Below are positions 8,180-44,043 of a stretch of 52,502 nucleotides of DNA, one piece after another; position 1 is the stretch's first letter, and every line of letters starts with the position of its first letter. Position numbers and translations under genes: made by a program. Origin of the DNA: a virus; IMG/VR virus record IMGVR_UViG_3300013297_000007, positions 1 to 52,502 of that record. One strand, written 5' to 3'. The notes under the pieces are model-generated. The model ran no database searches. It saw only the letters and a program-made list of their open reading frames with translations, and had not been told where the DNA came from.

Positions 8180-8391
8180 TGGCTTCGCTCAATAAAAACG
8201 ACCGCGACAACCTGTATAGCGCTGCGGCGCGGCTGGTCGAGCAGGCCTCGCGATTTGACCAGCAGGCAGATGTATTCGCGCAATGTCAGATGCACGACAG
8301 GGCGGAAGGGCACCGAAAGGTTGCAGCCGCGATGCGCGAGGAGGCGTCAGAATGTCGCCGATTGGCTGACGCTTGGAGGGGCGCGCAATGA
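8179..8391 (+). CDS. Small helical hypothetical protein
   Basis: The 70-residue, all-helical, charged protein has heptad-like Ala/Leu spacing (LVEQASRFDQQADVF). It overlaps its neighbours by TAATG and ATGA. No function recognised. Confidence 0.65.
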   Translation: MASLNKNDRDNLYSAAARLVEQASRFDQQADVFAQCQMHDRAEGHRKVAAAMREEASECRRLADAWRGAQ

Positions 8392-8918
8392 CCGCTCCCG
8401 CACACGTTGAGAAGGCCGCGTCGCTCGCCTTCATCCAGCAGCTGATTGAGATCGGCGAAATGTTCTCGCGCATCGGCGTCCAGCTGCGCACCTGCGAGGT
8501 TAAGCTGCCGATCGTAGCGTCAGCCTGGGTGCCGGCGAAAGCTGCGCAAGGCGGCTACCGCAAGTGCCCCGTCCCCGCTGGCGCCAAATTCGAGGCCGAC
8601 AAGGTCACGCTCGGCAAGAAGAATGGCCTGATCTTTCACTTCAAGCCTCTGGTCGCGGCCCAATCTGGCGATGTCTATGACCGGATCGAGCTGCCCTGGG
8701 ATGAGACGCAGGACATCTTCCCCGACATCGCCGACAAGGTGGAAGCCGAGTTGGGTTTCGACGTCGAGGCGGTCAACCAGAAACTGAAGGCGGCCTGCGC
8801 CAAGCGGAAGGAGATCCACAAGATCCTTTCCGAGGGCTTCGACAAGGCTTTCAGCGCACGAAACGACCGGATCCGCAAGGAAGCCGAGCACAGCGAACCG
8901 CTGTTCGGGATTATGTGA
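8388..8918 (+). CDS. Hypothetical protein carrying the PLFGIM C-terminal tag
   Basis: The start at 8388 (ATGA overlap) is preferred over an in-frame ATG at 8373. The 176-residue protein has a helical N-terminus, a central beta region (KKNGLIFHFKPL), and charged helices. It ends in EPLFGIM, one of nine occurrences in the window of the same C-terminal peptide on unrelated proteins. It lies between recombination genes and a 3'-5' exonuclease. Confidence 0.75.
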   Translation: MTAPAHVEKAASLAFIQQLIEIGEMFSRIGVQLRTCEVKLPIVASAWVPAKAAQGGYRKCPVPAGAKFEADKVTLGKKNGLIFHFKPLVAAQSGDVYDRIELPWDETQDIFPDIADKVEAELGFDVEAVNQKLKAACAKRKEIHKILSEGFDKAFSARNDRIRKEAEHSEPLFGIM

Positions 8919-9385
8919 TGCGATACTTCTTGGACACGGAATTCAACGGCTTCGGCGGCGAGCTGCTCAGCCTGGCGTTGGTGCGTGATGACGGCCGCGC
9001 GCTATATCTGACGGACGGCAGTCCTGATTTCGCACTGGATCCCTGGGTTGAAGAAAATGTCATGCCGGTGATGTTCGCCTACATCGCAAGCAGCGATGTG
9101 GAACACTCATCGAATGTCAGGCCGGAGTGGTCTCGCTTCATCGAGGACTTCCTCGCCGGAGATCCACAACCGCATATCGTCACCGACTGGCCGGATGACG
9201 TTCGCTATTTCTGCCAGGAGCTCATCACCGGGCCCGGCAAGATGATATCAACGGCCCGCCAGATCAACTTCACTATCCTGCGCATCGACGCCTACCCGAC
9301 ATCGGTGAAGGACGCGGTCCAACATAATGCCCTGTGGGATGCGCTCGCGCTACGCCAGGCCGTGCACGAATTGGAAATCAAATGA
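8918..9385 (+). CDS. DEDDh 3'-5' exonuclease/exoribonuclease-like protein
   Basis: The ATG at 8918 (TGATG) is chosen over GTG at 8915. The 155 residues show the exonuclease order: DTE (D6, E8), DWPDD (D90 or D94) and HNALWDA with H136 and D141. This is the Exo I/II/III pattern of DEDDh nucleases, in the compact form seen in phage and plasmid 3'-5' exoribonuclease-like proteins. The substrate, RNA or DNA, cannot be told. It overlaps the resolvase gene by ATGA. Confidence 0.75.
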   Translation: MRYFLDTEFNGFGGELLSLALVRDDGRALYLTDGSPDFALDPWVEENVMPVMFAYIASSDVEHSSNVRPEWSRFIEDFLAGDPQPHIVTDWPDDVRYFCQELITGPGKMISTARQINFTILRIDAYPTSVKDAVQHNALWDALALRQAVHELEIK

Positions 9386-9990
9386 CCATCATCACCATGC
9401 TCGGGCTCGATCCCAGCCTCACCAACACCGGCTATGCGATCGCGGACGTCGAGATCGAAACGGCGCGCATCGCTACGGTGCATCGCGTCGGGCTGATCGA
9501 AACCAAGCCGGGCCAGTCGGGCAAGAAAGTCCGCAAGAGCTCCGAAGATATGGAGCGCACCCGCCAGATCGTCACAGGCCTGAAAGATGCGGTCGCGCTG
9601 TTCAAGATCAAAATCGCGTGTGCCGAAATCCCCACGGGCACCCAGTCCGCCCGCGGCGCCTTCTCGAATGGCGTCTGCGTTGGTGTGATGGCATCCCTCC
9701 CCTACCCGCTCTTCGAGGTAAGCCCGACCGAGGTGAAGCTGGCGAGCCACGGCACCAAGCACGCCGATAAGGAGGACATCGTTCGTTGGGCTGTCGAGAT
9801 CGCCGGCGCGGGACAGGCATGGCCGATTCATGGTGCGAAGAATGATTGGGAAATCCCCTACGGGAAGCCGGGTAAATTCATCACAAAGAAGGCCGAGCAC
9901 CCTGCCGACGCACTCGCTGCGATCGCAGCCGGCATCAAAACGCCGCAATTCGCCCAGCTTGCAGGGGTGATACAATCTTTACGCGCGTAA
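9382..9990 (+). CDS. RuvC-like Holliday junction resolvase
   Basis: The 202-residue RNase H-fold protein starts with GLDPSLTNTGYAI (D10), has an acidic CAEIP (E82) and ends with EHPADALAAIAAG (H173, D176), the positions of the RuvC catalytic acids. It would resolve four-way junctions made by UvsX and SbcCD activity before packaging. A longer insert (about 85-150) than host RuvC fits phage RuvC-like enzymes. The ATG at 9382 overlaps the exonuclease stop. Confidence 0.82.
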   Translation: MTIITMLGLDPSLTNTGYAIADVEIETARIATVHRVGLIETKPGQSGKKVRKSSEDMERTRQIVTGLKDAVALFKIKIACAEIPTGTQSARGAFSNGVCVGVMASLPYPLFEVSPTEVKLASHGTKHADKEDIVRWAVEIAGAGQAWPIHGAKNDWEIPYGKPGKFITKKAEHPADALAAIAAGIKTPQFAQLAGVIQSLRA

Positions 9991-9993
9991 GCT

Positions 9994-10014
9994 GTGCATG
10001 CTAGACGACACACA
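9994..10014 (+). promoter_or_regulatory. TGCAT/ACGACACACAC promoter-like element before nrdA
   Basis: TGCATGCTAGACGACACACA just after the resolvase stop. The leader to nrdA is about 55 nt and ends in AAGGAG (10055-10060). Confidence 0.6.
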
Positions 10015-10065
10015 CGCGCTCAAGCTATACTGAAGCTTCAAATTCGTAAAACCCAAGGAGTATCC

Positions 10066-12066
10066 ATGACCGAGGCAACCGTCATTGCCGCGCCCGACGA
10101 GGCGCGCACATTTTACTTTTCTGCCGATGACGATATCGCCAATCGCGTCACCATCACCGTCGATGATGCCCTGGACGGCAAGCTGACCGCCTTCGGGAAG
10201 GCCACACTCTCCGATCGCTACCTCATCCCCGGCGAGCGCTTCCAGGACCTGTTCGCCCGCGTCGCGATCGCCAACTCGGACGATTATCTGTGGGGAGAGA
10301 ATGCCGGCCACGCGCAGCGCGTCTACGAATATATCGCCAAGGGTTGGTTCATGCCGGCGACGCCCGTGCTGTCGAATAGCGGCACCGATCGTGGGCAGCC
10401 GATCAGCTGCTTCCTGAATCTGATCGAGGACAATCTCGCGTCGATCAACGAAGGCCTCCAGGTCGAGAATTTCTGGCTCTCCGCCCGAGGCGGCGGCATC
10501 GGCACTTGCTGGAGCCCAGTGCGCAGCATCGGTGAGCCGGTCGGGCTATCCGGCAAGACGTCCGGTATCATTCCGTTCATTCACATCCAGGACGCGCTCT
10601 CGGCCGGCATCAGCCAGGGCTCCCTGCGCCGCGGTTCAGCAGCAGTCTATCTCGATGCCAGTCACCCCGAGATCATGGAGTTCCTCGACATACGCCGCGC
10701 CGACAAGGGCTCAGACCATTACCGCAAGGCTGAGAACCTGCATCATGGCGTGACCGTCCCGAATGCATTCATGCAGGCGGTGAAGGACGACACCGATTGG
10801 GATTTGATCAGCCCGCACACCGGCGTTGTGAAGGAAACCGTTCGCGCGCGCGACATCTGGCAGAAGATTCTGATCACGCGCCTCGAGACGGGCGAGCCCT
10901 ACATCGTCTTCATCGACACGATGAATAAGGAGTCTGGCCCGACATATCAGAAGCTCGGCTTGAAGATCCGCCAATCCAACCTGTGCAGCGAGATCGCATT
11001 GACCACCGGCATGGACCATTTGGCCAAACCACGCACCGCGGTGTGCTGCCTGTCCTCGCTCAATATGGCGACGTCTGAAGAATGGTTCGGGAACGACCTG
11101 TTCATCGAAGATGTGCTGCGCTTCCTCGACAACGTGATGACCAACTTCATCGAGAAGACTGATGGCGTCGATGGTTTCGAGCGCGCCCGCTACAGCGCAA
11201 TCCGTGAGCGTTCAGTGGGTCTGGGCTTCATGGGGCTCCACACCTTCCTGCAATCGAAGATGATCCCATTTGAGAGCTTCCAGGCGGTCAACATGCAGGC
11301 GAATATGTGGCGCTGGATCCGCGAGACGGCCGACAAGGCGAACATCGAGCTTTCGGTCGAGCGAGGCGCCTGCCCCGACGCGATCGATGCGGGCCTCGAA
11401 ATGCGCTTCAGCCATATGTTCTCGATCGCGCCGACCGCCTCAATCAGCATCATCTGCGGTGGCGTCTCAGCGGCCGGCGAGCCGATCCCGGCGAACGTCT
11501 ATACCCACAAGACGCTGTCGGGGAGCTTCGAGGTGCGCAACCCCCACCTGGACGCGCTGCTGCGGGCAAGGTTCAGCGATCTGCGCACGATGCTCTCCGG
11601 CCTCAACGCAGACATGACCGACTGGATGACCAAGATGCCGGCGTGGCGAGAAGTCGATCAGGGCCTCGAGCATTGGCTAAACTTCCAGTGGAAGTCGATC
11701 ACGGCCAATGGCGGCTCCGTGCAGCACCTGCCCTTCCTGACCGACTGGGAGAAGGGCGTTTTCCGCACCTTCGTCGAGATCGACCAGCGTTGGGTCATCG
11801 AGCATGCCGCCGCGCGCGGCCCGTATATCGACCAGGCCCAATCCACGAACATTGCGTTGCCTGCAGACGTCCATAAGAAGGACCTCCACACGCTGCACAT
11901 GCTTGCTTGGGAAAAGGGCCTCAAGAGCCTCTATTACCTACGCTCGCTGTCGATCCAGCGCGCGCAGGTTGTCGGTCACATGGCGGGTGAAATGCCTCAG
12001 CCCGACCAGCACGTCGCATCGACGCCTTTGTTCGACGAAGCGCTGGAGTGCCTGGCCTGCCAGTAA
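10066..12066 (+). CDS. nrdA: Ribonucleotide reductase large subunit (class Ia type)
   Basis: The 666-residue start at 10066 is fixed by AAGGAG 5 nt upstream. Catalytic signs are C115 in PISCFLN, NLCSE with N305, C307 and E309, CCLSSLN (C327, C328), the APTASISIICG loop and the C-terminal ECLACQ with C662 and C665 for redox relay. No N-terminal ATP-cone is visible, so overall activity control by dATP may be missing, as in other phage enzymes. It works with NrdB downstream to make dNTPs. Confidence 0.95.
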   Translation: MTEATVIAAPDEARTFYFSADDDIANRVTITVDDALDGKLTAFGKATLSDRYLIPGERFQDLFARVAIANSDDYLWGENAGHAQRVYEYIAKGWFMPATPVLSNSGTDRGQPISCFLNLIEDNLASINEGLQVENFWLSARGGGIGTCWSPVRSIGEPVGLSGKTSGIIPFIHIQDALSAGISQGSLRRGSAAVYLDASHPEIMEFLDIRRADKGSDHYRKAENLHHGVTVPNAFMQAVKDDTDWDLISPHTGVVKETVRARDIWQKILITRLETGEPYIVFIDTMNKESGPTYQKLGLKIRQSNLCSEIALTTGMDHLAKPRTAVCCLSSLNMATSEEWFGNDLFIEDVLRFLDNVMTNFIEKTDGVDGFERARYSAIRERSVGLGFMGLHTFLQSKMIPFESFQAVNMQANMWRWIRETADKANIELSVERGACPDAIDAGLEMRFSHMFSIAPTASISIICGGVSAAGEPIPANVYTHKTLSGSFEVRNPHLDALLRARFSDLRTMLSGLNADMTDWMTKMPAWREVDQGLEHWLNFQWKSITANGGSVQHLPFLTDWEKGVFRTFVEIDQRWVIEHAAARGPYIDQAQSTNIALPADVHKKDLHTLHMLAWEKGLKSLYYLRSLSIQRAQVVGHMAGEMPQPDQHVASTPLFDEALECLACQ

Positions 12067-12375: not shown

Positions 12376-12512
12376 GGGGGGCCCGCAAAGACCGCACGGT
12401 GAAACGGCACCGCATCCGCCGGCGTGAGGATAATGCCGTTGTCACATACCCCATCTGGGAGCCCACAGATCCGTCTGAGGGCAGCTTCAGCTGGCGGCAG
12501 GATTTCGTATGA
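12372..12512 (+). CDS. 46-residue basic miniprotein
   Basis: GTG at 12372 overlaps the previous stop (GTGA) and its TGA at 12510 overlaps the methyltransferase ATG (ATGA). The N-terminal half is very basic (VKRHRIRRRE) and the C-terminal half has Trp and Pro (YPIWEPTDP). The double coupling and filled gap support a real gene. A nucleic-acid contact is plausible from charge only. Confidence 0.5.
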   Translation: MRGARKDRTVKRHRIRRREDNAVVTYPIWEPTDPSEGSFSWRQDFV

Positions 12513-13129
12513 GTGACGTTGCGATGCTCGGCGACAGTGGCTTCGAGCTGGTCGAGGGGCAATTCTACCCGACGCCGCCCGAATATGTGGACTGCCTGGT
12601 CGCATTCTTCCGCGTCGCCGAGCCCGGTGGCATCTGGGAGCCGGCGTGCGGCGAAGGCCATATCTCCATCCGCTTGACCGAACATGGCGCCCTTGTCGTT
12701 TCCACGGATCTATACGATCGCGGCTTCGGGGTCTCCGGCGTCGATTTCCTCGCGTCAAATCCCAAGTCGATCGCGCCTGGCTACCGGGGCCCAAAGACGA
12801 TCGTCACCAATCCACCCTACGGCGATCTGGCCGCGCAATTCATCCGTAAAGCGCTCGAGCTCATGGAGCGCTGCAGCGGTCGCGTAGCCCTGTTCCTGCG
12901 CAACGAATTCGATTGCCGCAAGAACCAGGCACTGTTCAGCAAACACCCCGCCTACGCGGGGAAGGTCGTCGTCACCAAGCGGCCACGCTGGATCGCCGGC
13001 AGCAAAGGCTCCCCACGGCATAACTACGCTTGGTATATCTGGGATTTCGGCCGCGATCCCCAGAGCGACCAGTTCATCAAATACATTCATCCGAGCGAAG
13101 CGCCCTCGCCGCGCGCGCTTGCTGCATAG
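12509..13129 (+). CDS. DNA N6-adenine methyltransferase-like protein
   Basis: The 206-residue SAM-dependent fold has EPACGEGH (44-51) for cofactor binding and NPPY (101-104) as the catalytic motif of amino-methyltransferases. No separate target-recognition domain is visible, so it is compact like other phage orphan methyltransferases, which may protect DNA from host restriction. It has no restriction partner here. Its stop TAG sits inside the promoter element of nrdB, giving an Ala-Ala end. Confidence 0.85.
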   Translation: MSDVAMLGDSGFELVEGQFYPTPPEYVDCLVAFFRVAEPGGIWEPACGEGHISIRLTEHGALVVSTDLYDRGFGVSGVDFLASNPKSIAPGYRGPKTIVTNPPYGDLAAQFIRKALELMERCSGRVALFLRNEFDCRKNQALFSKHPAYAGKVVVTKRPRWIAGSKGSPRHNYAWYIWDFGRDPQSDQFIKYIHPSEAPSPRALAA

Positions 13130-16070: not shown

Positions 16071-16177
16071 TGACCATCAGCCCTGCCAATGCGCCCTTCG
16101 TGGGGCTCGCCCTGGGTATCGCCATTTATGTGAGCGCCTATCTCTCCCTAAGACTCTTGAAATGGAGCCGCCGCTGA
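16070..16177 (+). CDS. 35-residue membrane miniprotein
   Basis: ATG 16070 to TGA 16175, overlapping the kinase start by TGATG. One hydrophobic segment (VGLALGIAIYVSAYLSL) is followed by KWSRR, giving a single span with a basic cytoplasmic end. Function unknown. Confidence 0.5.
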   Translation: MTISPANAPFVGLALGIAIYVSAYLSLRLLKWSRR

Positions 16178-16794
16178 TGACTCGCATTCTATTCACTGGC
16201 GCACACCGCGCCGGTAAGACCACCCTCGCCCGCCGCGTCGCGAGCGAATACAATCTCCCCTACATCGCCTCGGACGCCGGCCGTATCGCGACCGAGATGG
16301 GCGTGGACCTGAAGGGGCTTGTCCCGCTCGATCTGCGCATCGACTACCAGACTGCGGTCATGGCGGACCTATTTTCGAAGATGTCGGCTCCGGAGGCCGC
16401 GAACGGTTTTGTAAGCGATCGCGCCCCGCTCGATTTGGCCGCATATCTCTTGGCGGATATCACCGCGGCTGTCGGCACGCCTGATATCCACGAGCGGATC
16501 ATGCAATATGTCGATCAGTGCATTCGCGCGACCCGCAACATGGCCGACGTCGTATTCCTGATCCCGCCAGGCATTCCGGTCGAGGACCATCCGCACAAGC
16601 CGAAGGTCAATCCCGCGTATCAATGGCATCACCATTTTCTTGTCAGCGGCTTCGCCCACGAAGACGACCTGAACGGGAAGATCGCGCGGATGCCGCTCGA
16701 AGTGCTTTCGCGCAATCAGCGCTGGCTATTCGTCGCCGGCACTATCGAGCAACGTCTGGGCATTAAGCCGCTTGCGCACACGCTCGCTGCATAA
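16177..16794 (+). CDS. P-loop kinase-like ATPase (NadR/AAA_28-like)
   Basis: ATG 16177 has GGAG 9 nt upstream. The 205 residues have Walker A GAHRAGKT (8-15), an internal SDRAPLDLAAY lid-like stretch and VVFLIPPG, resembling the NadR/AAA_28 nucleotide or nucleoside kinase group. Placement with nrd, thyX and dut suggests a deoxynucleotide kinase; NAD precursor phosphorylation is an alternative. Its stop lies in the next promoter element, giving an Ala-Ala end. Confidence 0.72.
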   Translation: MTRILFTGAHRAGKTTLARRVASEYNLPYIASDAGRIATEMGVDLKGLVPLDLRIDYQTAVMADLFSKMSAPEAANGFVSDRAPLDLAAYLLADITAAVGTPDIHERIMQYVDQCIRATRNMADVVFLIPPGIPVEDHPHKPKVNPAYQWHHHFLVSGFAHEDDLNGKIARMPLEVLSRNQRWLFVAGTIEQRLGIKPLAHTLAA

Positions 16795-17396: not shown

Positions 17397-17668
17397 CGAT
17401 GCGGACGCTCCACGCCGGCTTCAACCTGGCCCGGCGCAACGCTTTGAGGATGGTCAAGCGCGAGCTCCGCGCGAAGCTCCCGAAGGGCTGGCAAGTCTCC
17501 TTGATGGTCGGCTGGGGCTTCTGTGTCCACGACGCGGACGGGAACGCGGTCGTCGGCAATGAAGGCACGGACAAAAAGCGGCTCACCAAGCAGCAGGCCA
17601 AGGTGCTCGAGCTCGCCGCGGAGTTTTGCGACCTGTTCGGATACGACAATGAAAGGATCAAAATATGA
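17393..17668 (+). CDS. Hypothetical protein
   Basis: GTG 17393 overlaps the previous stop (GTGA); an in-frame ATG at 17399 is possible. About 91 residues, basic N-terminus (RRNALRMVKRELRAKL), then a WQVSLMVGWGFCVHDADGN beta segment and a helical end. Coupled to the exonuclease by ATGA. Confidence 0.6.
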   Translation: MTMRTLHAGFNLARRNALRMVKRELRAKLPKGWQVSLMVGWGFCVHDADGNAVVGNEGTDKKRLTKQQAKVLELAAEFCDLFGYDNERIKI

Positions 17669-18258
17669 CCCGCCTCATTGCGAACGTCCTGGATCTCGAG
17701 ACCACCGGCAAAAACGAGCCAGAACATCGTATCATCGAATACTCGAATCGATTGTATGATTGGGTGACGGGCGATTTCCTCAAGGAGATCACCTGGCGGA
17801 TCAACCCGCTCCGTCGCATCGACCCCGGCGCCTTCAAGGTTCACGGTATCAGCGCCGAGATGGTCAAGGATTGCATGACGTTCGACGTCGTGGCGCCGGC
17901 GATCGTCAGCCTGATCCGAGCCAGCGCGATCGTCATCGCCCACAACGGCGGCGGGCCCAAATATCCCGGCGACAAGGGCTTCGATTACCCCTTCCTCAAG
18001 CGCGAGCTTGAGCGCGTCGGCGAGAAGATGCCCGACGTGCCGTGGTTCGACACCATGGCTGAGGGCCGCTTCGCGACCCACAACGGCAAGATCCCCACCT
18101 TGGGCGAGCTTTGCCGCACCTTCGACGTCGAATACGACCCGGCGAAGGCACACAGCGGCTCGTACGACACCACGAAGACAGCCGAGAGCTACTTCGAGGG
18201 ATTAAGGATCGGCGCCTGGCCCGATCACGGCGCACCTCTGCTTGCCCAGGCTGCATAG
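17665..18258 (+). CDS. DnaQ-like DEDDh 3'-5' exonuclease
   Basis: The 197 residues carry DLETTG (D10, E12), an internal HNGGG followed by FDYPFLKREL (D107) and HSGSYD (H163, D168), the complete DEDDh set. It resembles DnaQ or ExoX proofreading-type enzymes. No DNA polymerase is in this window, so it may proofread one encoded elsewhere or recycle DNA. The stop overlaps the next promoter element. Confidence 0.85.
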   Translation: MTRLIANVLDLETTGKNEPEHRIIEYSNRLYDWVTGDFLKEITWRINPLRRIDPGAFKVHGISAEMVKDCMTFDVVAPAIVSLIRASAIVIAHNGGGPKYPGDKGFDYPFLKRELERVGEKMPDVPWFDTMAEGRFATHNGKIPTLGELCRTFDVEYDPAKAHSGSYDTTKTAESYFEGLRIGAWPDHGAPLLAQAA

Positions 18259-19328: not shown

Positions 19329-20069
19329 ATGACGAAGCGTAACAGCAAGCGCAACGACCCGGCCGCAGAGGGCAGCGACAGCAACGTCGTCGTGATGGAA
19401 CGCCCCGAGACCGAGGTGGTCGAAAACACGGCCGGAGGCGCGATCGAGCTGGATGACCTGGCGTTGATCGAAAAGATTGCCGGCGAAATTGCACCTGACG
19501 CGCCCGCCGCTGATCTGATCACCAGCGACGACGACATCCAGCAGATGCTCGAGGAGATCGGCTCGGGCGCGTCGGCAAGCAATGACGCGCCCGAGACCGC
19601 CGAAGCGACGACCGAGACCCCCGTCCCGGAGGCGACCGAGAAGAAGGGCCGCACTCGCAAGGTCAAGGTCCCGACCGCCGCCACAGCGGTTGTGACCACG
19701 CCGATCAGCACGCTCGTGTCGAAAGCGATCGCGAACGATCTGGATGCGATCCGCAAGGGCACGAACACGACGATCGCCAAGAAGGTCGCCGAGAAGATCG
19801 AGAACCTGTGCGACGCCGTCGAGACCGGCAAGCGCCTATCGGGCTTCACCAAGCTCGCGGTCAAGGAATTGGTCGGCCGCGGTGAGCTCACCGCGAAGGA
19901 TCTGGTTTCGGCTTACGTCAGCGACGGCAAGACCGAAGGCACAGCGCGGGCGCAGGCCCAGCAGATGACGGCGCTGTTCCGCCAGCTCGGGCTCACCACG
20001 GTCGACGGCCGCGTCTACCGCCTGAGCAACAAGCCGCTCGCCGACGCCCTGATGAAGGCCGCGGCGTAA
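19329..20069 (+). CDS. Hypothetical protein with acidic disordered N-terminus
   Basis: The 246 residues begin with about 100 acidic, Ala/Thr/Pro-rich residues, then a basic joint (KKGRTRKVKV) and a folded C-terminal domain of about 120 residues with helices (TIAKKVAEKIENLCDAVE) and a winged-helix-like end (FRQLGLTTVDGRVYRLSN). A DNA-binding role is possible. GAGGAG lies 8 nt before the ATG. It ends before a strong hairpin, so it is monocistronic. Confidence 0.7.
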   Translation: MTKRNSKRNDPAAEGSDSNVVVMERPETEVVENTAGGAIELDDLALIEKIAGEIAPDAPAADLITSDDDIQQMLEEIGSGASASNDAPETAEATTETPVPEATEKKGRTRKVKVPTAATAVVTTPISTLVSKAIANDLDAIRKGTNTTIAKKVAEKIENLCDAVETGKRLSGFTKLAVKELVGRGELTAKDLVSAYVSDGKTEGTARAQAQQMTALFRQLGLTTVDGRVYRLSNKPLADALMKAAA

Positions 20070-20835: not shown

Positions 20836-21372
20836 ATGACGATCATCACGAACGATATGCGCGGGAAGATCAACTTTGCCGTCATGCAGCACGCCTACAA
20901 GTCCAAGGTCGCCGAGCTGACAGCCGAGGCAAACGATCTCAAGCGCCAGGTCTACGAGCGCTTCTACGACGCCGAGACGCGCGCAGCGATCGGCCTGATC
21001 CGTGACAAATTCCCCACCGCGCTCTTTTCGCGCAGCATCTTCCGCGTGAACGTCGGCGGTGCGACGCTGATGCTCGGCTTCCGCGGCCAGAGCCATGTCT
21101 ACTCGATTAGTCTCGTCTCCCAGCACGCCGTTCGCGAAGATCAGGCCATCTTCCGAATGCTGGATCTCCATCGCGACGACAATCAGCGGATGCTGGACCT
21201 TGAGGCTGACGACGAGCTGGGCAAGGCGATCATGGACTTCTGCACACGGGTCGATGCGCTCGACGCGGAAATGAGCGCGCGCCGCCAGGAGATCGCCGGC
21301 GTGATGTCGGGCTTCCGCACTGACGGGCAGATTGAAGCTGGTTGGCCCGACGTTATGCCGATCGCACGCTAG
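20836..21372 (+). CDS. Hypothetical phage protein ending at an in-frame amber codon
   Basis: ATG 20836 follows AGGAGA. The 178 residues include a long helix (VAELTAEANDLKRQVYERF), a beta domain with VNVGGATLMLGFRG and a helical C-terminal part ending TDGQIEAGWPDVMPIAR. TAG follows at 21370, but the same frame stays open for 38 more codons in protein-like sequence to TAA at 21487. The true product may be 217 residues, with the amber a CAG-to-TAG change, a sequence error or readthrough. Function unknown. Confidence 0.7.
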   Translation: MTIITNDMRGKINFAVMQHAYKSKVAELTAEANDLKRQVYERFYDAETRAAIGLIRDKFPTALFSRSIFRVNVGGATLMLGFRGQSHVYSISLVSQHAVREDQAIFRMLDLHRDDNQRMLDLEADDELGKAIMDFCTRVDALDAEMSARRQEIAGVMSGFRTDGQIEAGWPDVMPIAR

Positions 21373-23724: not shown

Positions 23725-24381
23725 GTGGCGGCGGTGGCAGGGTTTATCAGAGAGGAAGACCTTCATCCGGAATGGCATGACGCGGTAGCGGCACGTCAGA
23801 TAAGGGTGCCGATCGTAAATATATCGACGTTGTGGGCGGCGCCGCTGTATCAGATCCCGACGGTTGAGGCGCGGCATAATATCCTGCTTGGCCACGCCCA
23901 CTATAACGGACATCCCGCTACCTTGCTGCGCCTCGCGGACGGTCGCGTCGCAATCTTCAAGGGTGTCCGATCGCCGGAAGGAATTCTGTCTGAGTATCCC
24001 GTAAGCTACGCTGGTGGGTGGCTCGATGCGCTTGGCGCTATCACCCGCGGCGCTCAGGCGCACGCCTTCTACTGGCCCGCCAAACGCATACCACTGTCCG
24101 CGACCGGTGACGGTCGGACGCATCATTATATCGTCTGGCGCGACGAGTTCATCCCGATCCGGATGTTCAGCGGCGGCTTCAAATTTAACCGCGGCGATCG
24201 GACGCATACATTTGACAAGTCGCCTTGGACAGTCGGGCGCGAATTATCCATTTTGCTCGAAGCAAGCGGGGTAGGGAGGGGCGGTGTCGACATGGATGAG
24301 CTCATGCACTGCGAGGATAGCCCGTTCGAGGCCCCACCGCCGCCTGCCGAGGCAGTTCATCCGCTATTCGGGTTGATGTGA
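23725..24381 (+). CDS. Hypothetical protein with PLFGLM C-terminal tag
   Basis: GTG 23725 directly follows the previous TAG. The 218-residue soluble protein is rich in aromatic residues (YIVWRDEFIPIRMFSGGFKFN) and has a Pro/Ala linker before the final HPLFGLM. The linker isolates the tag, as expected for an exposed docking or targeting peptide. No enzyme motif was seen. Confidence 0.7.
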   Translation: MAAVAGFIREEDLHPEWHDAVAARQIRVPIVNISTLWAAPLYQIPTVEARHNILLGHAHYNGHPATLLRLADGRVAIFKGVRSPEGILSEYPVSYAGGWLDALGAITRGAQAHAFYWPAKRIPLSATGDGRTHHYIVWRDEFIPIRMFSGGFKFNRGDRTHTFDKSPWTVGRELSILLEASGVGRGGVDMDELMHCEDSPFEAPPPPAEAVHPLFGLM

Positions 24382-28244: not shown

Positions 28245-28513
28245 CCGAACGCATCGAGCGCGCAGCCATCAATTACGACGACGTGGGCGTCGTGTCGCTG
28301 CCGAAACCAGCGCGGCATCACCACATCATCGGCGCGCGCTACGGTGTTGATAAAACCGTCACCGGTGGTCCCGATCGCGCCGTCCAGGGCTTCATCACAT
28401 CCGAGGGGCGCTTTGTTGATCGCGTCGAGGGGCTGCGCATAGCGCGCGCGGCGAAACAGGTCGTCCGGAAGCAGGGCAACCCCCACATGCTGTTCTCCGA
28501 GGATATGTGGTGA
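28241..28513 (+). CDS. Conserved hypothetical phage protein
   Basis: 90 residues, ATGA start. The HHHIIGARYG, VQGFITSEGRFVDR and ARAAKQVV segments match a family common in phage accessory regions (a GF-T--GRF-R-EA pattern). Function unknown. Confidence 0.7.
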   Translation: MTERIERAAINYDDVGVVSLPKPARHHHIIGARYGVDKTVTGGPDRAVQGFITSEGRFVDRVEGLRIARAAKQVVRKQGNPHMLFSEDMW

Positions 28514-28854
28514 CAAACGTCTGCTTCACGGGGCGCGGGGTTCACCCTGGCTCCAGCAAGGTCATTGCGCGCGAGCGATGGGAATTATGGGCGCGAGCGA
28601 TGGATTGGAGCGTTGATGCGCGCGTAACGGCTTGGACACATGTTCTAGTCGCGTCGCGCGCAGACACCGTGAAGGCAAAACAGGCCATCGCCAACGGCGT
28701 GCGCGTCATCACGTATGATGAATTCTACCGGCGATATCAGGCGCACATAGCGGGTGGAGACCTGGGGTCGCAGCAAGATGATCAGCCCTGTGCTGCCGCT
28801 CCAACGCCCACGATAGACGAGGCGGTCTCCAGCCCGCTTTGGGGATTGATGTGA
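28510..28854 (+). CDS. BRCT-like miniprotein with PLWGLM C-terminal tag
   Basis: GTG 28510 (GTGA overlap; GTG 28507 is an alternative). The first 80 residues resemble a BRCT domain: NVCFTGRG, a helix with RERWELWARAM, a THVLVAS strand, a KAKQAIANGVRVI helix-strand and YDEFYRRY. BRCT domains bind phosphoproteins or DNA ends, as in NAD-dependent ligase. A disordered Pro/Ala linker then leads to SSPLWGLM. No ligase domain is attached. Confidence 0.65.
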   Translation: MTNVCFTGRGVHPGSSKVIARERWELWARAMDWSVDARVTAWTHVLVASRADTVKAKQAIANGVRVITYDEFYRRYQAHIAGGDLGSQQDDQPCAAAPTPTIDEAVSSPLWGLM

Positions 28855-29462
28855 TCGATTACAACGACGCCGATCCAGGCTATTTGCTGACGGGCATCTA
28901 CGCGCTCGTCAAGGATATCAGGGTTGTGATCCCATCGGGGATGGCGCGCGGTGATGTCGTCATCGTGCCGGGCGACAACGTCTACGTTTCGAACGGCACC
29001 TCTGGCCCGAGGAGCCTACGCAAGCACAATGGCGTGAAAGAGTTTATTGAGGGGCGACACCCTGATGTGATGACAAAGGGCGCCGCGGACCATTCAGCAC
29101 TCGCGGAGGATCTCAAGCACATCGTCGTGCGGGCGAATCCGTCGGGCTTTGCTTACAACGTTCGCGACGCGCGTGAGCCGGTCTATATCGAGGACGAAGG
29201 ATGGTTCATTCTCGTTCCTGGTAAGCCCAAGGTGCCAAGCGAAAGCCCGCTTAGGGTGAGGCAACGCGAGCAAATGGAGGCGCTGGAGCGGGCGGAAGCC
29301 GGTAAGCGTTGGGCGGCTGATGCCAAGAAATTGGCCGCCGAAGCGGCAGTGCGGTTGGAGCAGGATATGCAGCGCAAAGCTGCCGCCGCCCGGGCAAAGG
29401 CTGAGGCGCAGGCTGCGGAGCGCCGCGAGCTTGAGAGCAGCCCTCTTTACGGTCTGGTTTGA
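28851..29462 (+). CDS. Hypothetical protein with coiled coil and PLYGLV tag
   Basis: GTG 28851 overlaps the previous stop (GTGA). The 203 residues have an N-terminal beta domain (IRVVIPSGMARGDVVIVPGD), a middle domain, a charged Ala/Lys/Glu coiled coil (about 140-195) and the end SSPLYGLV. Two consecutive genes here carry the same tag. Function unknown. Confidence 0.7.
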   Translation: MIDYNDADPGYLLTGIYALVKDIRVVIPSGMARGDVVIVPGDNVYVSNGTSGPRSLRKHNGVKEFIEGRHPDVMTKGAADHSALAEDLKHIVVRANPSGFAYNVRDAREPVYIEDEGWFILVPGKPKVPSESPLRVRQREQMEALERAEAGKRWAADAKKLAAEAAVRLEQDMQRKAAAARAKAEAQAAERRELESSPLYGLV

Positions 29463-30288: not shown

Positions 30289-30554
30289 TGCCTGCATCGC
30301 CGATCGAACCTATGCTGGTTCTTTCCACGGCTCACCTGACCGAGGATACCTGCAATTCCTTTCTCCCGTTCTGGTCCGGCCCGTGCTGGGTGAAGGGTGA
30401 ATACGGCTGGTTCGTCTATGTGACCGAGGACGTCGAAAGCGAGCCAAGCGATCTGATTCAGTGCTTCGCAGAGGCCCGTCGCCGCGAGTGCTGCTGGATT
30501 ATGTTCGAGCGCGACGCGCCGGAGATCGAGGAGCTCCCTACGTATGAGTGGTGA
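30288..30554 (+). CDS. DUF5983-like small protein
   Basis: TAATG start. The 88 residues contain LVLSTAHLTEDT and WFVYVTEDVE, characteristic of the DUF5983 group in phages and plasmids, and an ERDAPEIE end encoded by the first copy of a 25-bp direct repeat. Function unknown. Confidence 0.65.
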   Translation: MPASPIEPMLVLSTAHLTEDTCNSFLPFWSGPCWVKGEYGWFVYVTEDVESEPSDLIQCFAEARRRECCWIMFERDAPEIEELPTYEW

Positions 30555-30584
30555 CGCAATCGAGCGCGACGCGCCGGAGATCGA
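30505..30584 (+). repeat. 25-bp direct repeat across a gene junction
   Basis: Copies at 30505-30529 and 30560-30584 (begins TCGAGCGCGACG) are identical. They encode ERDAPEI in both genes although the genes are in different frames. Confidence 0.8.
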
Positions 30585-30855
30585 CTGGGGCGAGCCGATC
30601 GAATTCGAGGATGGCCGTCGTGCTTATGTGACGGAATTTGACCTAGTGCTCGATGACAGCACACGCGGTGTAGGGATCAGCGACGATCCCAGCGACGCCA
30701 GCTTTTGGAATTATCGCCGAGATGGCACGCATTTTTACAGCGATCAACCCGCCGTCCGCAACGTCCGCCAGTCTCAACCCGAAGCCAAATCGACACCGGC
30801 ACCCGCTCCAGCTAAATCTCCAGACAGCGACCACCCGCTGTTTGGGATGATATGA
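30544..30855 (+). CDS. IDW-domain protein with PLFGMI tag
   Basis: The 103 residues start with a segment duplicated from the end of the previous gene, followed by EIDWGEPIEFEDGRRAYV, the recurring IDW domain of this region, with a YRRDGTHFYSD end. A Pro/Ala linker precedes HPLFGMI. The 5' part may have arisen by a 55-bp tandem duplication. Confidence 0.7.
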   Translation: MSGDAIERDAPEIDWGEPIEFEDGRRAYVTEFDLVLDDSTRGVGISDDPSDASFWNYRRDGTHFYSDQPAVRNVRQSQPEAKSTPAPAPAKSPDSDHPLFGMI

Positions 30856-31672: not shown

Positions 31673-31974
31673 TGTCCGACGACAACCAGATCGCCCGCAC
31701 GATCCTCGATCAGCTCGGCGGCAACCGCTTCGTGGCCATGACCGGCGCCTCCGGGTTCGTGGGGCATGGGAGAGTGCTGACGATGCGTCTGCCGCGGAAC
31801 AAGTGCGGCGCCAATCGTCTCGCCATCGCGCTCGATCCCGACGACACCTATCGCATGGTGTTCAGCAGCCTCCGCAGCCTCGACTTGAAGCCTGTCAAGG
31901 AGGTTGAGGGGTTGTTCGCCGAGGATCTGCAGCGGATCTTCACCGAAGTCACCGGCATGGACACGCACTTGTGA
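31672..31974 (+). CDS. Conserved hypothetical phage protein
   Basis: 100 residues beginning with an acidic helix and LGGNRFVAMTGASGF, then LTMRLPRNK, NRLAIAL and DTYRMVF; this order recurs in small phage proteins. Function unknown. The start at 31672 replaces an upstream in-frame ATG at 31618. Confidence 0.65.
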   Translation: MSDDNQIARTILDQLGGNRFVAMTGASGFVGHGRVLTMRLPRNKCGANRLAIALDPDDTYRMVFSSLRSLDLKPVKEVEGLFAEDLQRIFTEVTGMDTHL

Positions 31975-32486
31975 CCATCGACTGGACAAAGCCGATCGAA
32001 GCCGTGCGGGAGGGCACGGGGGAGACTGTGCGACTGACGGTGAAAGGGCGGGCGACCGAATCCCCAGGACGCGAGGGATACGAGACGATCGAGTGCCCGA
32101 ACCCTGATGAGGCGAATAGGTGCTGGAATCCAGACGGCACGAATTGGTGTCATGTCGGGCTTTGGAAGGTTCGCAACGTCGCCGAGCCTGAAGATGTGCC
32201 TTTGCCGAGCACAATCGACTGGGATCGGCAACTGGAGTTTGAAGACACGGGCGGGCGCGCTTGGTTGAACGGCTTTCATGTAGATGGCGGCGATTTGCAG
32301 TGGGCTTCAGTCGTCGATCGTAACGGCGAGGTCTATGAATTCTACATGGATGGTGCGCCAAAGCCGACGCACAACAGGCGAATAAGGAACCGTGTCAGTC
32401 AGGCTGAGGAAGCCCGCAAGCGCGTGGAAGCGAAACGTGCAGAACGCGCGGCCGAGACGTCGCACCATCTCTTCGGACTGGTGTGA
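31971..32486 (+). CDS. Double IDW-domain protein with HLFGLV tag
   Basis: GTG 31971 (GTGA). The 171 residues hold two IDW modules: TIDWTKPIEAV at the N-terminus and TIDWDRQLEFEDTGGRA near 80, then a charged helix and the end SHHLFGLV, a variant with His for Pro. The repeated module suggests internal duplication. Function unknown. Confidence 0.7.
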   Translation: MTIDWTKPIEAVREGTGETVRLTVKGRATESPGREGYETIECPNPDEANRCWNPDGTNWCHVGLWKVRNVAEPEDVPLPSTIDWDRQLEFEDTGGRAWLNGFHVDGGDLQWASVVDRNGEVYEFYMDGAPKPTHNRRIRNRVSQAEEARKRVEAKRAERAAETSHHLFGLV

Positions 32487-33067
32487 TGATCGACTGGAGC
32501 AAGCCTCTCTGCTTCGCTGACACAACCGGCGAGCGCGTGCGTATCCACGCCCGCACGGGCTCCTATCATCTGCCGAGCACCTGCGTGATCGTGAGAGACC
32601 GGATGGGTAAGCTATACGCCTACTCGAACACCGGGATCGCGCAGCCGCCGAACAACGACACCTGGCGGGGTGAGCCGCTTCATGGCCCGCGGCCGATCAT
32701 GAATATGGGCCCGGCCGAGCAGGCGTTGGCAGATAAGAAAATGGTCGAACTGCCGCGCGGCCCCATCGATTTCAAGATCGACGGCTTGAGCCAGCACGCC
32801 AGGCGGCTGCTGGTGGATGATTTGCCGCCGGATGAGCGCCCCAGATTTTCCATCAGCCCATGCGATGCCGTTAGCGAACTGTTGAAGTTGGAATTCATCG
32901 CGGTCAACGCCGCCCCAGGACTGCACAGCCACCATGTCACCTGGCAGGGCATGGCGGCGCGGACGAGGATCCTCACCGGCGCCTACGACCACCACAAGGA
33001 GATTTACGCCAAGCGCGCCATGCGCTTTACCGCGGAGCAGACGCACCCGCTCTATGGTCTAGTGTAA
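32486..33067 (+). CDS. IDW-domain protein with PLYGLV tag
   Basis: ATG 32486 (TGATG) is preferred over GTG 32483. The 193 residues start MIDWSKPLCFADTTGERVRI, continue with a second domain rich in charged residues (LLVDDLPPDERPRF) and end THPLYGLV. Paralogous at the N-terminus to the previous gene. Confidence 0.7.
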   Translation: MIDWSKPLCFADTTGERVRIHARTGSYHLPSTCVIVRDRMGKLYAYSNTGIAQPPNNDTWRGEPLHGPRPIMNMGPAEQALADKKMVELPRGPIDFKIDGLSQHARRLLVDDLPPDERPRFSISPCDAVSELLKLEFIAVNAAPGLHSHHVTWQGMAARTRILTGAYDHHKEIYAKRAMRFTAEQTHPLYGLV

Positions 33068-35283: not shown

Positions 35284-35645
35284 TGGCCGACCGCGAACAA
35301 GAACGTCGCTGGCGCTTCGAGGAACAGCTGGAGGCGATGCAGGCTCTCGCTGCCGCCGGTCGCCACCGTGACGATTGCCTGTGCCTGGCGGTCAGCTATG
35401 CCTGGCGGGAGGGTATGCCCAATTGCGGCCAACAGCTGCAGAAGCCCGCCCTGCATTTCGTAGGCTTTCGCGGCGAGGAATATTGGAGCGCCGTCAAGAT
35501 CTGGGGCAAGCCAGGCTTTATCCACCGCGGATGGGATCGGCGCGCATTCCGCGACATAGCGCCGTGGGACATCGTAATCTTCGCCAAGGGCACGGCTGAC
35601 GATCCGCCGGCCGAGCGCAATTACAACGACTGGGATGGCGCGTGA
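35283..35645 (+). CDS. Hypothetical protein
   Basis: 120 residues: charged helix (REQERRWRFEEQLEAMQAL), a CLCLAVSYAWREGMPNC segment and an aromatic domain (FIHRGWDRRAFRDIAPWDIVIF). Function unknown; GTGA link to the next gene. Confidence 0.65.
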   Translation: MADREQERRWRFEEQLEAMQALAAAGRHRDDCLCLAVSYAWREGMPNCGQQLQKPALHFVGFRGEEYWSAVKIWGKPGFIHRGWDRRAFRDIAPWDIVIFAKGTADDPPAERNYNDWDGA

Positions 35646-35932
35646 CGGCCGACATCAACGCCAGCTTCGATCTCCCGGACGTCGATTGGGATCAGTCGGT
35701 CCAATGGAATGACGGCACGCCGGCGATTGTCGAGAAGGGAGGCTACGGCTATATGCTGGCCTGGCTCGACAAAGACCAGCTCCCGGCCGGCTTGCCCGAT
35801 CGCAGCCACATGCACTTCCAAGACAGCGTCGCCCTCTACAACGACGGCACGATCGTGGGGTTAGACAGCGAGGCGCGGGTGGAAAACACCGAGCAGCCCA
35901 TGGACGGCAGGGCGCTATGGGGCTTGATGTGA
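35642..35932 (+). CDS. IDW-domain protein with ALWGLM tag
   Basis: GTG 35642. The 96 residues include VDWDQSVQWNDGTPAIVEKG, a diverged IDW domain with YNDGTIVGL, and end GRALWGLM (Ala for Pro in the tag). Confidence 0.65.
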   Translation: MTADINASFDLPDVDWDQSVQWNDGTPAIVEKGGYGYMLAWLDKDQLPAGLPDRSHMHFQDSVALYNDGTIVGLDSEARVENTEQPMDGRALWGLM

Positions 35933-40176: not shown

Positions 40177-40251
40177 TGATTCGGTTTTCTGATCGCAAAT
40201 TCCCAACATCGTCGGACCAGAAACCGCGAAAATCTGCGGAAAATTAGTCCT

Positions 40252-40270: not shown

Positions 40271-40286
40271 TCCTAGAAAATGGTCA

Positions 40287-40304
40287 CACCGAAGCGGTTC
40301 GGTG
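40287..40304 (+). promoter_or_regulatory. GCGG-loop leader hairpin 10 (covariant)
   Basis: Stem CACCGAA/TTCGGTG: the upper pair C-G seen in other copies is A-T here, with loop GCGG kept. AAAGG 7 nt later. Confidence 0.75.
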
Positions 40305-40323
40305 CAAACGAAAGGTAACTCTC

Positions 40324-41010: not shown

Positions 41011-41018
41011 TACGTGAG

Positions 41019-41050
41019 ACTGCTAGCGCGCATCACACCGCGCTAGCAGT
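41019..41050. terminator. Hairpin at the convergent end
   Basis: A perfect 12-bp stem ACTGCTAGCGCG/CGCGCTAGCAGT, 8-nt loop, 8 nt after the stop. Confidence 0.7.
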
Positions 41051-41497: not shown

Positions 41498-41872
41498 TCA
41501 CTTGTCCGAAATATGCAGCTTATTTCGGACAGACTCCCTGGCTCGGGAACTGGACGCTGAAGCCATCCACCGATGGTCAGCGATAACCACAGGCCGCTTG
41601 CGCCAGTAGCCCCATTCGGCGCGCCGCTCGTCAATGGCGCGCCACTCGTCAATATAGCGAGAATGATCAAAACAGGCGAACGTCAGGTAGCCATGATACC
41701 AGGCCATCGCCATTCCCCAGGCTGCCTTCGGTGTCGTGAAGCCATACAGCGACACCAGCAACGCCAGGCCATCCGGCCGAAACATTTCGAATGCGTATAT
41801 CTGACCCGTGCCGAGACGATGGGTCCGGACGCGTGGCTTTATGCTCGCGTCCTTCACATTACACAATGTCAT
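41498..41872 (-). CDS. Hypothetical protein
   Basis: Start at 41872 (GAAAGG 6 nt upstream on the minus strand); 41917 is a longer alternative. 124 residues: TLCNVKDASIKPRVRTHRLG, LALLVSLYGFTTPKAAWG and an aromatic basic C-terminus. Its final codons lie in a 10-bp hairpin. Function unknown. Confidence 0.55.
   Translation of the reverse strand: MTLCNVKDASIKPRVRTHRLGTGQIYAFEMFRPDGLALLVSLYGFTTPKAAWGMAMAWYHGYLTFACFDHSRYIDEWRAIDERRAEWGYWRKRPVVIADHRWMASASSSRARESVRNKLHISDK
41504..41530. terminator. Hairpin at the 3' end of the minus-strand gene
   Basis: GTCCGAAATA/TATTTCGGAC, 7-nt loop, inside the last codons of the leftward gene. Confidence 0.5.
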
Positions 41873-42002
41873 GGCCATCCTTTCGTAAGCCAGTGCTCGA
41901 GCGAGCATCTGACGCATCGCCTGCGCTCATAAAAGAACCAGGTCGGCCGGACCTCGATCGTCATATAGAGACAACCCAAGATCCGGCAGAGGAGGGTGCG
42001 TT

Positions 42003-43652
42003 TCACGCCGCGGCCAGATAGGTCTGCATGCGTGTGGTCAACACTGCCATCTCGGCCTGAATAGCGGCGAACTCCTTGGCGCGCGCTTCAGCCTTGGCGA
42101 TCGCCGCGAGACGGTTTGCCTCGGCCGCGGCAGCTGCATCAGCAGCGGCTTTGTCTTCGGCGGCTTTTCTGGCTGCCGCGGCTGCAGCCGCCGCTTCGGC
42201 GGCAAGCTTATCCTTGGTCGCCTGGTTCTGCGCGGTCAGTAGATAATAGATCGGGTAGGCGGGCAGGGTGATGTGAGGCATCTCGCCCCAGACCCCATAC
42301 TGGCTTCCTGGGCCCGACAGTTCAAAGAAGCAGACTTCGGTCGCGCCGGCATCCCATGCGGTTTGCAGGCTCGACATGATGATTCCCGCGACCGGTTCGG
42401 AATGTGCGATTGGGAGGATCCAGTTGAGCAGCGCGTTTCGCACATTCGCGTCTGTCACCCAGGGCGCCTGCAGGTAGAGCGACATGTCGCCCTCATAGAC
42501 CTTGTATGCGATGCCGGCCGCTGCGCACGCGGCTGCGGCCTTCTGGTGGCGGAGCGCAAGCGGGGCGACCTTCGACTGCAGAAGCGCGATGAAGCCGGCT
42601 TTGTCGTCCGCGTTCATCATCGGCACGTATTTCGCGACGAAATCCTCGATCTTGGCGAAGTCGTTCATGTTGAGGTAGGAGGCGTTCGCGTAGCCTGCGA
42701 TCAGCGACCTTGGGGCGCCGGATTCATCCCAGCCCTTCAGGATCGCCGGCAGGTTCGAGGCGCCGTCGCTGGCTTGGCTCGCGAGGTTGATCTTGAACTT
42801 GGGCGAGACGGACGACACGAGCTTCGCGACCTGGCCCGCGCGCCAGCCATAATAGCTGAGCACATCGGAATAGGCGGCCTTGGTCAGATTATAATGGGCG
42901 GCCGCGGCGGCGTAGGCATAGGTGCGATGGTAGGTCCAACCATATTCGTTGCTCCACTCGAAGTCGACCTCGGCGCCGTAGCTGGCGAGCGCCATCGCGG
43001 TGGCCATGATGTCGGAATCGGGCATGAGATGGTGGATTGGATACCAGAGCTTCACGCCGAGCTTCTGCGCGAGCGCACCGGCGATTTCAGCCGCCATACC
43101 GCCCGTGGCGTCATTGAAGTTGGCGTCGGTCGGGAGCGGTCTACGCGCGGGCCAGTAATCGGCGTTGGTCGCGTTCCAGTCCAGCAGACGAAGCGGGCCG
43201 AACGGGCTGACGCGTGTTAGAAAATCAGGGTTGAATATCTCACCGGAAAGATAGAGCTGCTCATGCTCGAGGCGCATGAAAGCCATCTTGGTGACGGGGC
43301 CGGTGGCGGTGATCACCAGGCCAACGCCGGTGGATGCTGATTTGATGGTGAAGGTCGCCCGGCCGTTGACTGGCTTCACGGTGCCCCAGGGCGTGCTGAC
43401 CGATGCGACGTTGGCATCGCAGAGGAAAACATAATCGTGCGAGGTCGGATTGGTGACGATGGACGTGTCGATCGGATCGAGCGGCACCTGGCGCGAGACG
43501 GAGCCGGCCTTGGTGGGCAGAAGCGTCACCGGGTCGCAGGCGGCCGTATCATTGAACGGGGCGCTCGACATGCTGAGACGATTAATGAACGGGCATTCGT
43601 TAGTGTAATAATTGTCGGCGCCGAGGTTGGCGCCATAGAACGGATACGTCAC
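42003..43652 (-). CDS. Glycoside-hydrolase-like protein with Ala-rich C-terminal helix
   Basis: 549 residues. A beta-rich N-terminal part (1-150) is followed by an alpha/beta domain with EWSNEYGW (E236), the Asn-Glu acid/base motif of clan A hydrolases, YKVYEGDM (E388) and CFFELSG (E444) as nucleophile candidates. Residues 478-549 form an Ala/Lys/Glu coiled coil. The layout suits a virion- or cell-surface polysaccharide enzyme, e.g. a depolymerase. No signal peptide was seen. The family call is by motif only. Confidence 0.6.
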   Translation of the reverse strand: MTYPFYGANLGADNYYTNECPFINRLSMSSAPFNDTAACDPVTLLPTKAGSVSRQVPLDPIDTSIVTNPTSHDYVFLCDANVASVSTPWGTVKPVNGRATFTIKSASTGVGLVITATGPVTKMAFMRLEHEQLYLSGEIFNPDFLTRVSPFGPLRLLDWNATNADYWPARRPLPTDANFNDATGGMAAEIAGALAQKLGVKLWYPIHHLMPDSDIMATAMALASYGAEVDFEWSNEYGWTYHRTYAYAAAAAHYNLTKAAYSDVLSYYGWRAGQVAKLVSSVSPKFKINLASQASDGASNLPAILKGWDESGAPRSLIAGYANASYLNMNDFAKIEDFVAKYVPMMNADDKAGFIALLQSKVAPLALRHQKAAAACAAAGIAYKVYEGDMSLYLQAPWVTDANVRNALLNWILPIAHSEPVAGIIMSSLQTAWDAGATEVCFFELSGPGSQYGVWGEMPHITLPAYPIYYLLTAQNQATKDKLAAEAAAAAAAARKAAEDKAAADAAAAAEANRLAAIAKAEARAKEFAAIQAEMAVLTTRMQTYLAAA

Positions 43653-43662
43653 AGCAAGTCCT

Positions 43663-44043
43663 TCAAACTAGGCCATAAAGCGGATTGTCGAGCGCCGGGT
43701 CGGCGGGCTCTGGGGTCTCGTCTATCGAGGGCGAATTGCCGAAAAAGGCGTCGAGAATCTTGCGCTCGTGCTTTTCAGCTATGCGCTTGAGGACGGCATC
43801 ATCGAGGTCGGGCCATTCGTCGAGCGTGACGCTCGTGACATTCCGGCCGGTAAATTTCTGCTTCCTTTGCTTGACGGCGGGGGTGGGCGTGTAGTCCGCC
43901 TGATCGAAGATCTTCGTCGCGCCCTGCCGCGAGATCGTCGTGCCGACATTCCAGCTAAACCAATGAGATGCCGCGTCCTCAAACGGGTTGATCCCGCGTG
44001 TCTTGTCGTACAGGTCCATCGGATAATACTCGTCGCTACCCAT
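43663..44043 (-). CDS. Hypothetical protein with PLYGLV C-terminal tag
   Basis: 126 residues, start GTG-independent ATG at 44043. SHWFSWNVGTTISRQGATK, a basic middle and helices, then an acidic Pro-rich linker and DNPLYGLV. This is the only tagged protein on the minus strand, which rules out a rightward-operon artefact. Confidence 0.7.
   Translation of the reverse strand: MGSDEYYPMDLYDKTRGINPFEDAASHWFSWNVGTTISRQGATKIFDQADYTPTPAVKQRKQKFTGRNVTSVTLDEWPDLDDAVLKRIAEKHERKILDAFFGNSPSIDETPEPADPALDNPLYGLV

Follow-up and report, generated by a model that had tools for sequence, protein, structure and literature searches.

Nine proteins encoded in a 52,502-nucleotide stretch of viral DNA (positions 1 to 52,502 of IMG/VR virus record IMGVR_UViG_3300013297_000007; hereafter the window, meaning the whole stretch analysed) end at the stop codon in variants of one short peptide, PL[FWY]G[LIM][MVI]. 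Judged by sequence comparison, this ending is the window phage's own dialect of a wider C-terminal tag, [FWY]-G-x-[F/W], found in related phages. On balance, we believe that this ending serves as a C-terminal docking motif for a single putative phage-encoded partner in the early apparatus, probably that of replication and recombination.

The nine C-terminal peptides claimed in the original prediction were all found exactly in the window translation (Table 1). For the carrier on the minus strand the ending was right, whereas position 44043, given as the end of the gene, is its start; the stop codon lies at 43663-43665. The pattern L[FWY]G[LIM][MVI] precedes 9 of the 2,469 stop codons in the six reading frames of the window, the nine carriers being all the cases, and has no internal occurrence in 14,540 predicted residues. 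A comparison with random expectation, which the original prediction had called for, rules out a chance origin: composition predicts 0.0012 such endings among 104 called genes, against nine seen. Parts of the initial description needed narrowing. The P-L start is shared by seven of the nine, HHLFGLV and RALWGLM being the exceptions, and a Pro/Ala linker precedes the tag in some carriers but not in the protein at 8388-8918 (gpX), where the tag follows a long helix. The carriers are mostly unrelated, as had been proposed, except that a short IDW domain is common to four of them (30544, 31971, 32486 and 35642); because of this, their sequences suggest about six independent carrier groups, not nine. 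A simple coding-potential caller left 28507-28854 and 31971-32486 uncalled and gave 23725-24381 and 30544-30855 low scores; the BRCT/ligase-type match (E 2e-4) of 28507-28854 supports a genuine gene despite the missing call.

Private dialects of the tag among related phage-plasmids

From gene order and sequence comparison, the window phage belongs, as a deeply divergent lineage, to the ~110 kb phage-plasmids of the DnaE/CobST/gp32 type (SSU5, nickie and Rhizobium phages); SSU5-type elements are phage-plasmids according to their published description. Its genes run from a gp32-like single-strand DNA-binding protein (SSB) through a FEN-type exonuclease, UvsX/RecA, SbcD, SbcC, gpX, RNase H and RuvC to NrdA, followed by a methyltransferase, NrdB, thymidylate synthase, dUTPase, a kinase and DnaQ. 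This early-gene order is near that of Rhizobium phage RHph_N1_10, Salmonella SSU5 and Pseudomonas nickie, and it contains the succession SSB-FEN-RecA-SbcD-SbcC-gpX-RNaseH/RuvC-Nrd-Thy-dUTPase-DnaQ that the SSU5/nickie/Rhizobium group shares. A 16-protein core-gene tree places the window phage on a deep branch of its own, and its SbcC is ~40% identical to those of relatives. One metagenome contig (L001), whose SbcC is 100% identical to that of the window, overlaps its start and adds ~2 kb upstream, including an open reading frame (ORF) whose end resembles that of the relatives' DnaE; DnaE, DnaB, DnaG, CobS/CobT and the structural module would lie outside the window.

With the SbcC-like gene as bait, relatives of this exonuclease were found in 905 plasmid records, including those of Klebsiella, Escherichia, Salmonella, Acinetobacter and Aeromonas. 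We surveyed complete or large partial sequences of relatives for tags, and in most of those examined 2-10 proteins have the tag [FWY]-G-x-[F/W] at their end (with or without a further A, S or G), often after NP; NPLYGLV is the window form nearest to the relatives' NPxYGxF. Each genome has a flavour of its own. Seven proteins end in WG[ILMV]F in G029 (a Faunimonas pinastri element), five mainly in WGMF in G039, and four in FG[IM]F or YGMF in G016; the form is FGRF in G002, G004 and G014, FGAF/FGRF in G005 and G011, and WGSW in G012. An extra Gly follows on three proteins of G013 (WG[AT]WG), and G028 has [WF]GxW[AS]. Nine ends in nickie are of the G[AGST][WF] type (DFGGWA, DAGGWS and GTWA among them); G031 encodes seven to eight proteins ending in xGxW, and SSU5 just two tagged proteins, in the relaxed form WATW. 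Clustering the 95 tagged proteins found with a uniform pattern gave 50 clusters, the largest of which merges two families, gpX and gpY.

Flavour maps onto the phage tree, and unrelated proteins change together along it. Tags on non-homologous proteins agree better within than between genomes at position -4 (0.67 versus 0.38), position -2 (0.36 versus 0.11) and position -1 (0.79 versus 0.41), as well as in the presence of an extra residue (0.88 versus 0.67); 0 of 1,000 label shuffles equalled this agreement. Phages of closely related hosts differ: FGSF in Xenorhabdus contrasts with WATW in Salmonella/Kluyvera, and, within the Rhizobiales, WGxF in Faunimonas contrasts with FGRF in Phyllobacterium.

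After the pattern had been fixed, we checked ~40 kb of four fresh named plasmids and found FGSW and YGSW in Cupriavidus, WGMF twice in Methylobacterium AMS5, WGAFA once in an Aeromonas caviae plasmid and FGAF three times in Sinorhizobium pLM21S1. No tag was present in the comparison regions of T5, P1, T4 or Brevundimonas phage StAshley; the ending is thus not similarly frequent in these comparison regions, in keeping with the original prediction. A scan of all IMG/VR contigs for NPxWGMF before a stop returned 7 matches in 6 contigs, at least 3 of them from this clade. One match, L223:2616-4025, is a 469-aa ORF that looks terminase-like in size and position; the 46 kb contig that encodes it is apparently unrelated, and the ending of the ORF, NNNPTWGMF, is probably due to chance.

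Two conserved carrier families and selection on the peptide

Two families carry the tag throughout, and dozens of lineage-specific families carry it as well. gpX is encoded directly after SbcC in relatives, as is the window protein at 8388-8918, which aligns to the 15-member gpX family with an hhalign probability of 97% (E 1.4e-10) when the tag is removed; its relatives were recognised solely through synteny and profile. gpY is encoded between primase and ligase. The original prediction depended on relatives keeping the ending, and they do: gpX is tagged in 15 of 15 genomes and gpY in 13 of 13. The gpX tails include NPLFGIF, NPNFGRF, NELFGAF, NPVWGSW, NRSWGMF, NPNFGMF and HPQWGTW, among others, and one gpX (L011:12733-13227) ends in two tandem tags, ANPIFGAFLIPNFGAF (ANPIFGAF-LIPNFGAF). 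With the last ten residues cut, gpX and gpY show no homology (hhalign 0.2%), and the Gly of the tag is the sole invariant column in an alignment of 25 gpX and gpY sequences.

An AlphaFold2 model of the window gpX (mean pLDDT 85.6) consists of an N-terminal helix, a beta-rich domain to about residue 125, a long helix at 126-168 and an exposed tail. Both this model and that of a second gpX (mean pLDDT 86 and 87) place the tag past a long terminal helix, with a lower confidence there (59 and 68, against 85-90). A fold search with gpX gave no confident match in the PDB and no known fold; the best viral model matching it (E 3e-7) is an uncharacterised protein of an uncultured phage. A match to the ribosomal P2 stalk (E 0.12) was rejected as a look-alike ending only.

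Codon usage bears on whether the tag is kept as peptide or as DNA. Among the nine window tags, synonymous codons are identical in 38 of 129 comparable pairs, against 48.9 expected from genome codon usage; the endings are therefore not recent DNA copies of each other, and the codon variation first noted in the window holds up. Part of that variation is a Shine-Dalgarno effect on the Gly codon. When the stop adjoins or overlaps the start of the next gene, GGA or GGG encodes the Gly of the tag in 46 of 51 cases; where there is no such overlap the codon is GGC or GGT in 29 of 42, with the peptide unchanged, and so the overlap shapes codon choice only. In 27 tagged genes the next start is more than 30 nt away. 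The claim that the signal is selected as a peptide is borne out: it survives synonymous change, persists where no gene overlaps downstream, and has outlasted very deep divergence in relatives; the codon differences and the persistence without a downstream gene rule out inheritance at the DNA level.

A putative reader and the competing explanations

We propose an exposed tail of the form [FWY]-G-x-[hydrophobic/aromatic]-COOH, usually after N/D/S/H-P-x and presented on a helix end or a flexible linker, that would plug otherwise unrelated early non-structural proteins into one partner. A phage gene would encode this single reader, since the tags within one genome shift in concert along the phage tree, and even closely related hosts have phages of different flavour. 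The reader would belong to the replication and recombination apparatus, to judge from gene positions: gpX is flanked by SbcCD and the RNase H/RuvC genes, and gpY by primase and ligase. The hub may be a component of the phage replisome other than a clamp, with DnaE, the gp32-like SSB and the universal proteins adjoining DnaQ or DnaB as candidates; in the window phage, the pocket of the reader would have shifted from terminal Phe/Trp to Met/Val/Ile. A broader version, which we hold to be about as likely as not, is a phage-wide recruitment code in which any early protein could join the reader's complex by gaining the tail, and tail and reader would co-evolve into a private dialect in each lineage.

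Several points weigh against this docking model. The label shuffles applied to the within-genome agreement ignore phylogeny and used tags preselected by pattern, and the gene calls in relatives came from a home-made caller. In the enteric members the tag is limited to one or two proteins, and in some of these phages its form is relaxed (WATW in SSU5). A scan of 26 core families for columns that switch with the terminal Phe/Trp gave nothing convincing; column 60 of DnaQ separates the Phe and Trp groups, one match among more than 8,000 columns. No gp45-like (PF02916) or DnaN-like (PF00712) clamp was detected in 22 records, although the window is a fragment and a very divergent clamp could escape such a search. 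DnaE of relatives, one of the candidates, is untagged and mostly has ...VFxxVxxLL-type ends. The earlier suggestion of a tag read by one hub protein is upheld in part: co-variation within genomes is as expected and the exclusion of tags from structural genes disfavours packaging, whereas the column scan yielded no partner.

That exclusion bears on a virion-cargo label, by which the tail would bring unrelated proteins into the head, to be ejected when the next host is infected. Like internal head proteins, the carriers are small and variable accessory proteins without mutual relationship, and C-terminal cargo peptides read by HK97-fold shells occur in encapsulins. Yet across 22 genomes tagged genes number 0 of 438 in the structural block and 90 of 2,698 outside it (p 1.6e-6), and the most conserved carriers, gpX and gpY, sit among replication and recombination genes. 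None of ~1,050 core-family members is tagged, and 93 of 93 tagged proteins belong to non-core families; the absence from the structural block and the confinement to non-core proteins of the early region speak against a simple role in virion assembly, and we regard a cargo label as unlikely.

A degradation signal, a hydrophobic C-terminus read by ClpXP, Lon, Tsp or a phage adaptor that times early proteins, strikes us as doubtful. C-terminal hydrophobic degrons exist, and the same genomes have a separate strong excess of ClpX-like -AA ends. The tag, however, ends in F, W, M, V or I rather than LAA (all nine window ends are M, V or I), no core enzyme carries it, and its flavour shifts between the phages of hosts as close as Xenorhabdus and Salmonella/Kluyvera whereas ClpXP is highly conserved.

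We find it improbable that the tail docks to a hub supplied by the host, for instance RNA polymerase or the DnaN clamp. These phages have genes for DnaE and DnaQ but no recognisable clamp and so probably use that of the host, and clamp ligands are short and often C-terminal; but no tail among the nine matches QxxLF/QLxLF, Leu at position -5 is not conserved in relatives, and flavour varies within the Rhizobiales and within the Enterobacterales, tracking the phage tree. It is very improbable that all carriers descend from one ancestor as fast-diverging paralogues that kept the tail alone. Four window proteins do share the IDW segment and some genomes have adjoining tagged genes of duplicated look, but gpX and gpY are dissimilar once their tags are cut, most other tagged proteins match neither, and the proteins differ in their predicted make-up (BRCT-like, IDW, or a beta-domain with a helix); on the profile comparisons between gpX, gpY and the others we reject a single paralogous family, the window IDW proteins still being mutually related. 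Finally, an origin of the peptide as a side effect of the signals that start the next gene (a Shine-Dalgarno sequence and an overlapping start codon, GGA/GGG then TGATG) fits the Gly codons of overlapping genes but is refuted as a cause by the intact tag without overlap and leaves the flanking aromatics unexplained, so that we give it virtually no credence beyond codon choice.

If the docking model is correct, the tail would open a way into the uncharacterised early proteins of this widespread group of phage-plasmids: it would predict which hypothetical proteins work in one complex, and the peptide could serve as bait for the hub. The group would also furnish a natural series of tail-reader pairs with jointly changed specificity.

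Carrier genes, other shared endings and known systems

Table 1. Tagged genes and context markers in the window.
Feature	Coordinates	Strand	Length (aa)	Ending	Remarks
gp32-type single-strand DNA-binding protein	32..760	+			5' end beyond window; phrog_1192 E 2.5e-14; PF08804 gp32 E 6e-5
SbcC/gp46-like exonuclease subunit	5824..7755	+			phrog_77 E 1e-110; context marker for gpX
gpX orthologue, tagged	8388..8918	+	176	EPLFGIM	tag codons 8895-8915
Universally conserved protein adjoining DnaQ	19329..20069	+			present in all 25 genome sets compared; no Pfam match
Tagged protein	23725..24381	+	218	HPLFGLM	start uncertain (possibly 23830); no overlapping downstream gene
Tagged BRCT-like protein	28507..28854	+	115	SPLWGLM	NAD-dependent ligase PHROG E 2.3e-4
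Tagged protein	28851..29462	+	203	SPLYGLV	Ala/Glu/Arg-rich helical C-terminal region
Tagged IDW-domain protein	30544..30855	+	103	HPLFGMI	Pro/Ala linker
Tagged protein with two IDW segments	31971..32486	+	171	HHLFGLV	
Tagged IDW-domain protein	32486..33067	+	193	HPLYGLV	no overlapping downstream gene
Tagged IDW-like protein	35642..35932	+	96	RALWGLM	84 nt to next gene
Tagged protein	43663..44043	-	126	NPLYGLV	

The BRCT match of 28507-28854 (E 0.005) falls below the curated cut-off, and 23725-24381 has no family match and a weak coding score. Peptide-pattern scans of IMG/VR viral contigs returned no close relatives of the tagged proteins at 8388, 23725 and 32486. The IDW domain links its four carriers through weak BLASTP matches (E 0.003-1.4); in 31971-32486 the segments span residues 2-33 and 81-135, and both match protein 32486-33067. 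This small domain, of the form IDW...PLxF, thus recurs in four tagged window proteins, twice in one of them. The C-terminal tail of the SSB at 32-760 (ELDIDSILAGLD; DILADLDSI in relatives) resembles an acidic stretch of the LDDLL type within the N-terminal part of 19329-20069. The window also encodes an Nmad5-type nucleotide-modification protein (20836-21372) and, on the minus strand, a cytidylate kinase (47768-48421), a ParA/MipZ-type ATPase (49509-50141) and a UvsW-like helicase (50465-51997).

Two further shared endings emerged. In the window, 13 of 104 proteins end in -AA, several in LAA, against 1.4 expected (1813-2841, 4500-5573, 12509-13129, 16162-16794, 17665-18258 and, on the minus strand, 42003-43652 are examples). 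Most alphaproteobacterial relatives show such an excess too (as many as 27 of 147 proteins), also on core enzymes, and overlap with the next start alone is insufficient to explain it; these ends are possibly ClpX-type signals. A second common C-terminal peptide, roughly AAxxGD[LM]xAA[IL]N, lies within a few residues of the stop on two or three different proteins per genome in G002, G004, G005, G007, G009, G012, G013, G014 and G016 (for example L226:4369-4905, minus strand) and is absent from the window.

Among known systems, the clamp-binding tails of phage T4 are the closest working model for the tag: gp43, gp55 and gp33 have similar, interchangeable C-termini that bind the gp45 clamp (PMC2988020). 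Those tails, SLDFLFG and SLDFLYEAND among them, are like the tag short hydrophobic C-terminal epitopes on unrelated proteins of one phage. The tag differs in placing aromatic-G-x-aromatic at the very end, in being carried by dozens of families and in its lineage-specific flavour, and it is absent from the DNA polymerase. We do not assign it to the T4 family, since its motif is different, DnaE lacks it and a gp45- or DnaN-like clamp is not detectable.

The C-terminal tail of SSB and the tails of T7 gp2.5 and gp4 end in Phe and recruit replication partners. A general role of SSB tails in such recruitment is documented (PMC9917605). These tails resemble the tag in being exposed with a terminal aromatic, but they are strongly acidic, and one tail binds many partners or two bind one polymerase, whereas the tag has many carriers and is not strongly acidic. 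Encapsulin cargo-loading peptides and the T4 capsid-targeting sequence are terminal peptides common to unrelated cargo proteins; their sequences differ from the tag, which is absent from the structural block. The DnaN-binding motif (QLxLF, or QLVLGL in DinB) is short, hydrophobic and often C-terminal, and the L-G-L end of DinB superficially resembles the x-G-x of the tag. The tag, however, lacks Gln in all nine window proteins and Leu in most relatives, and its aromatics at -4 and at the terminus have no counterpart in that motif. Degrons of the ssrA/LAA type read by ClpX are likewise C-terminal hydrophobic signals on many proteins, but the tag ends in F, W, M, V or I after Gly-x. Set beside these systems, the tag, apparently undescribed in the open-licence literature searched, is remarkable for the number of its carriers and for its lineage-private dialects.

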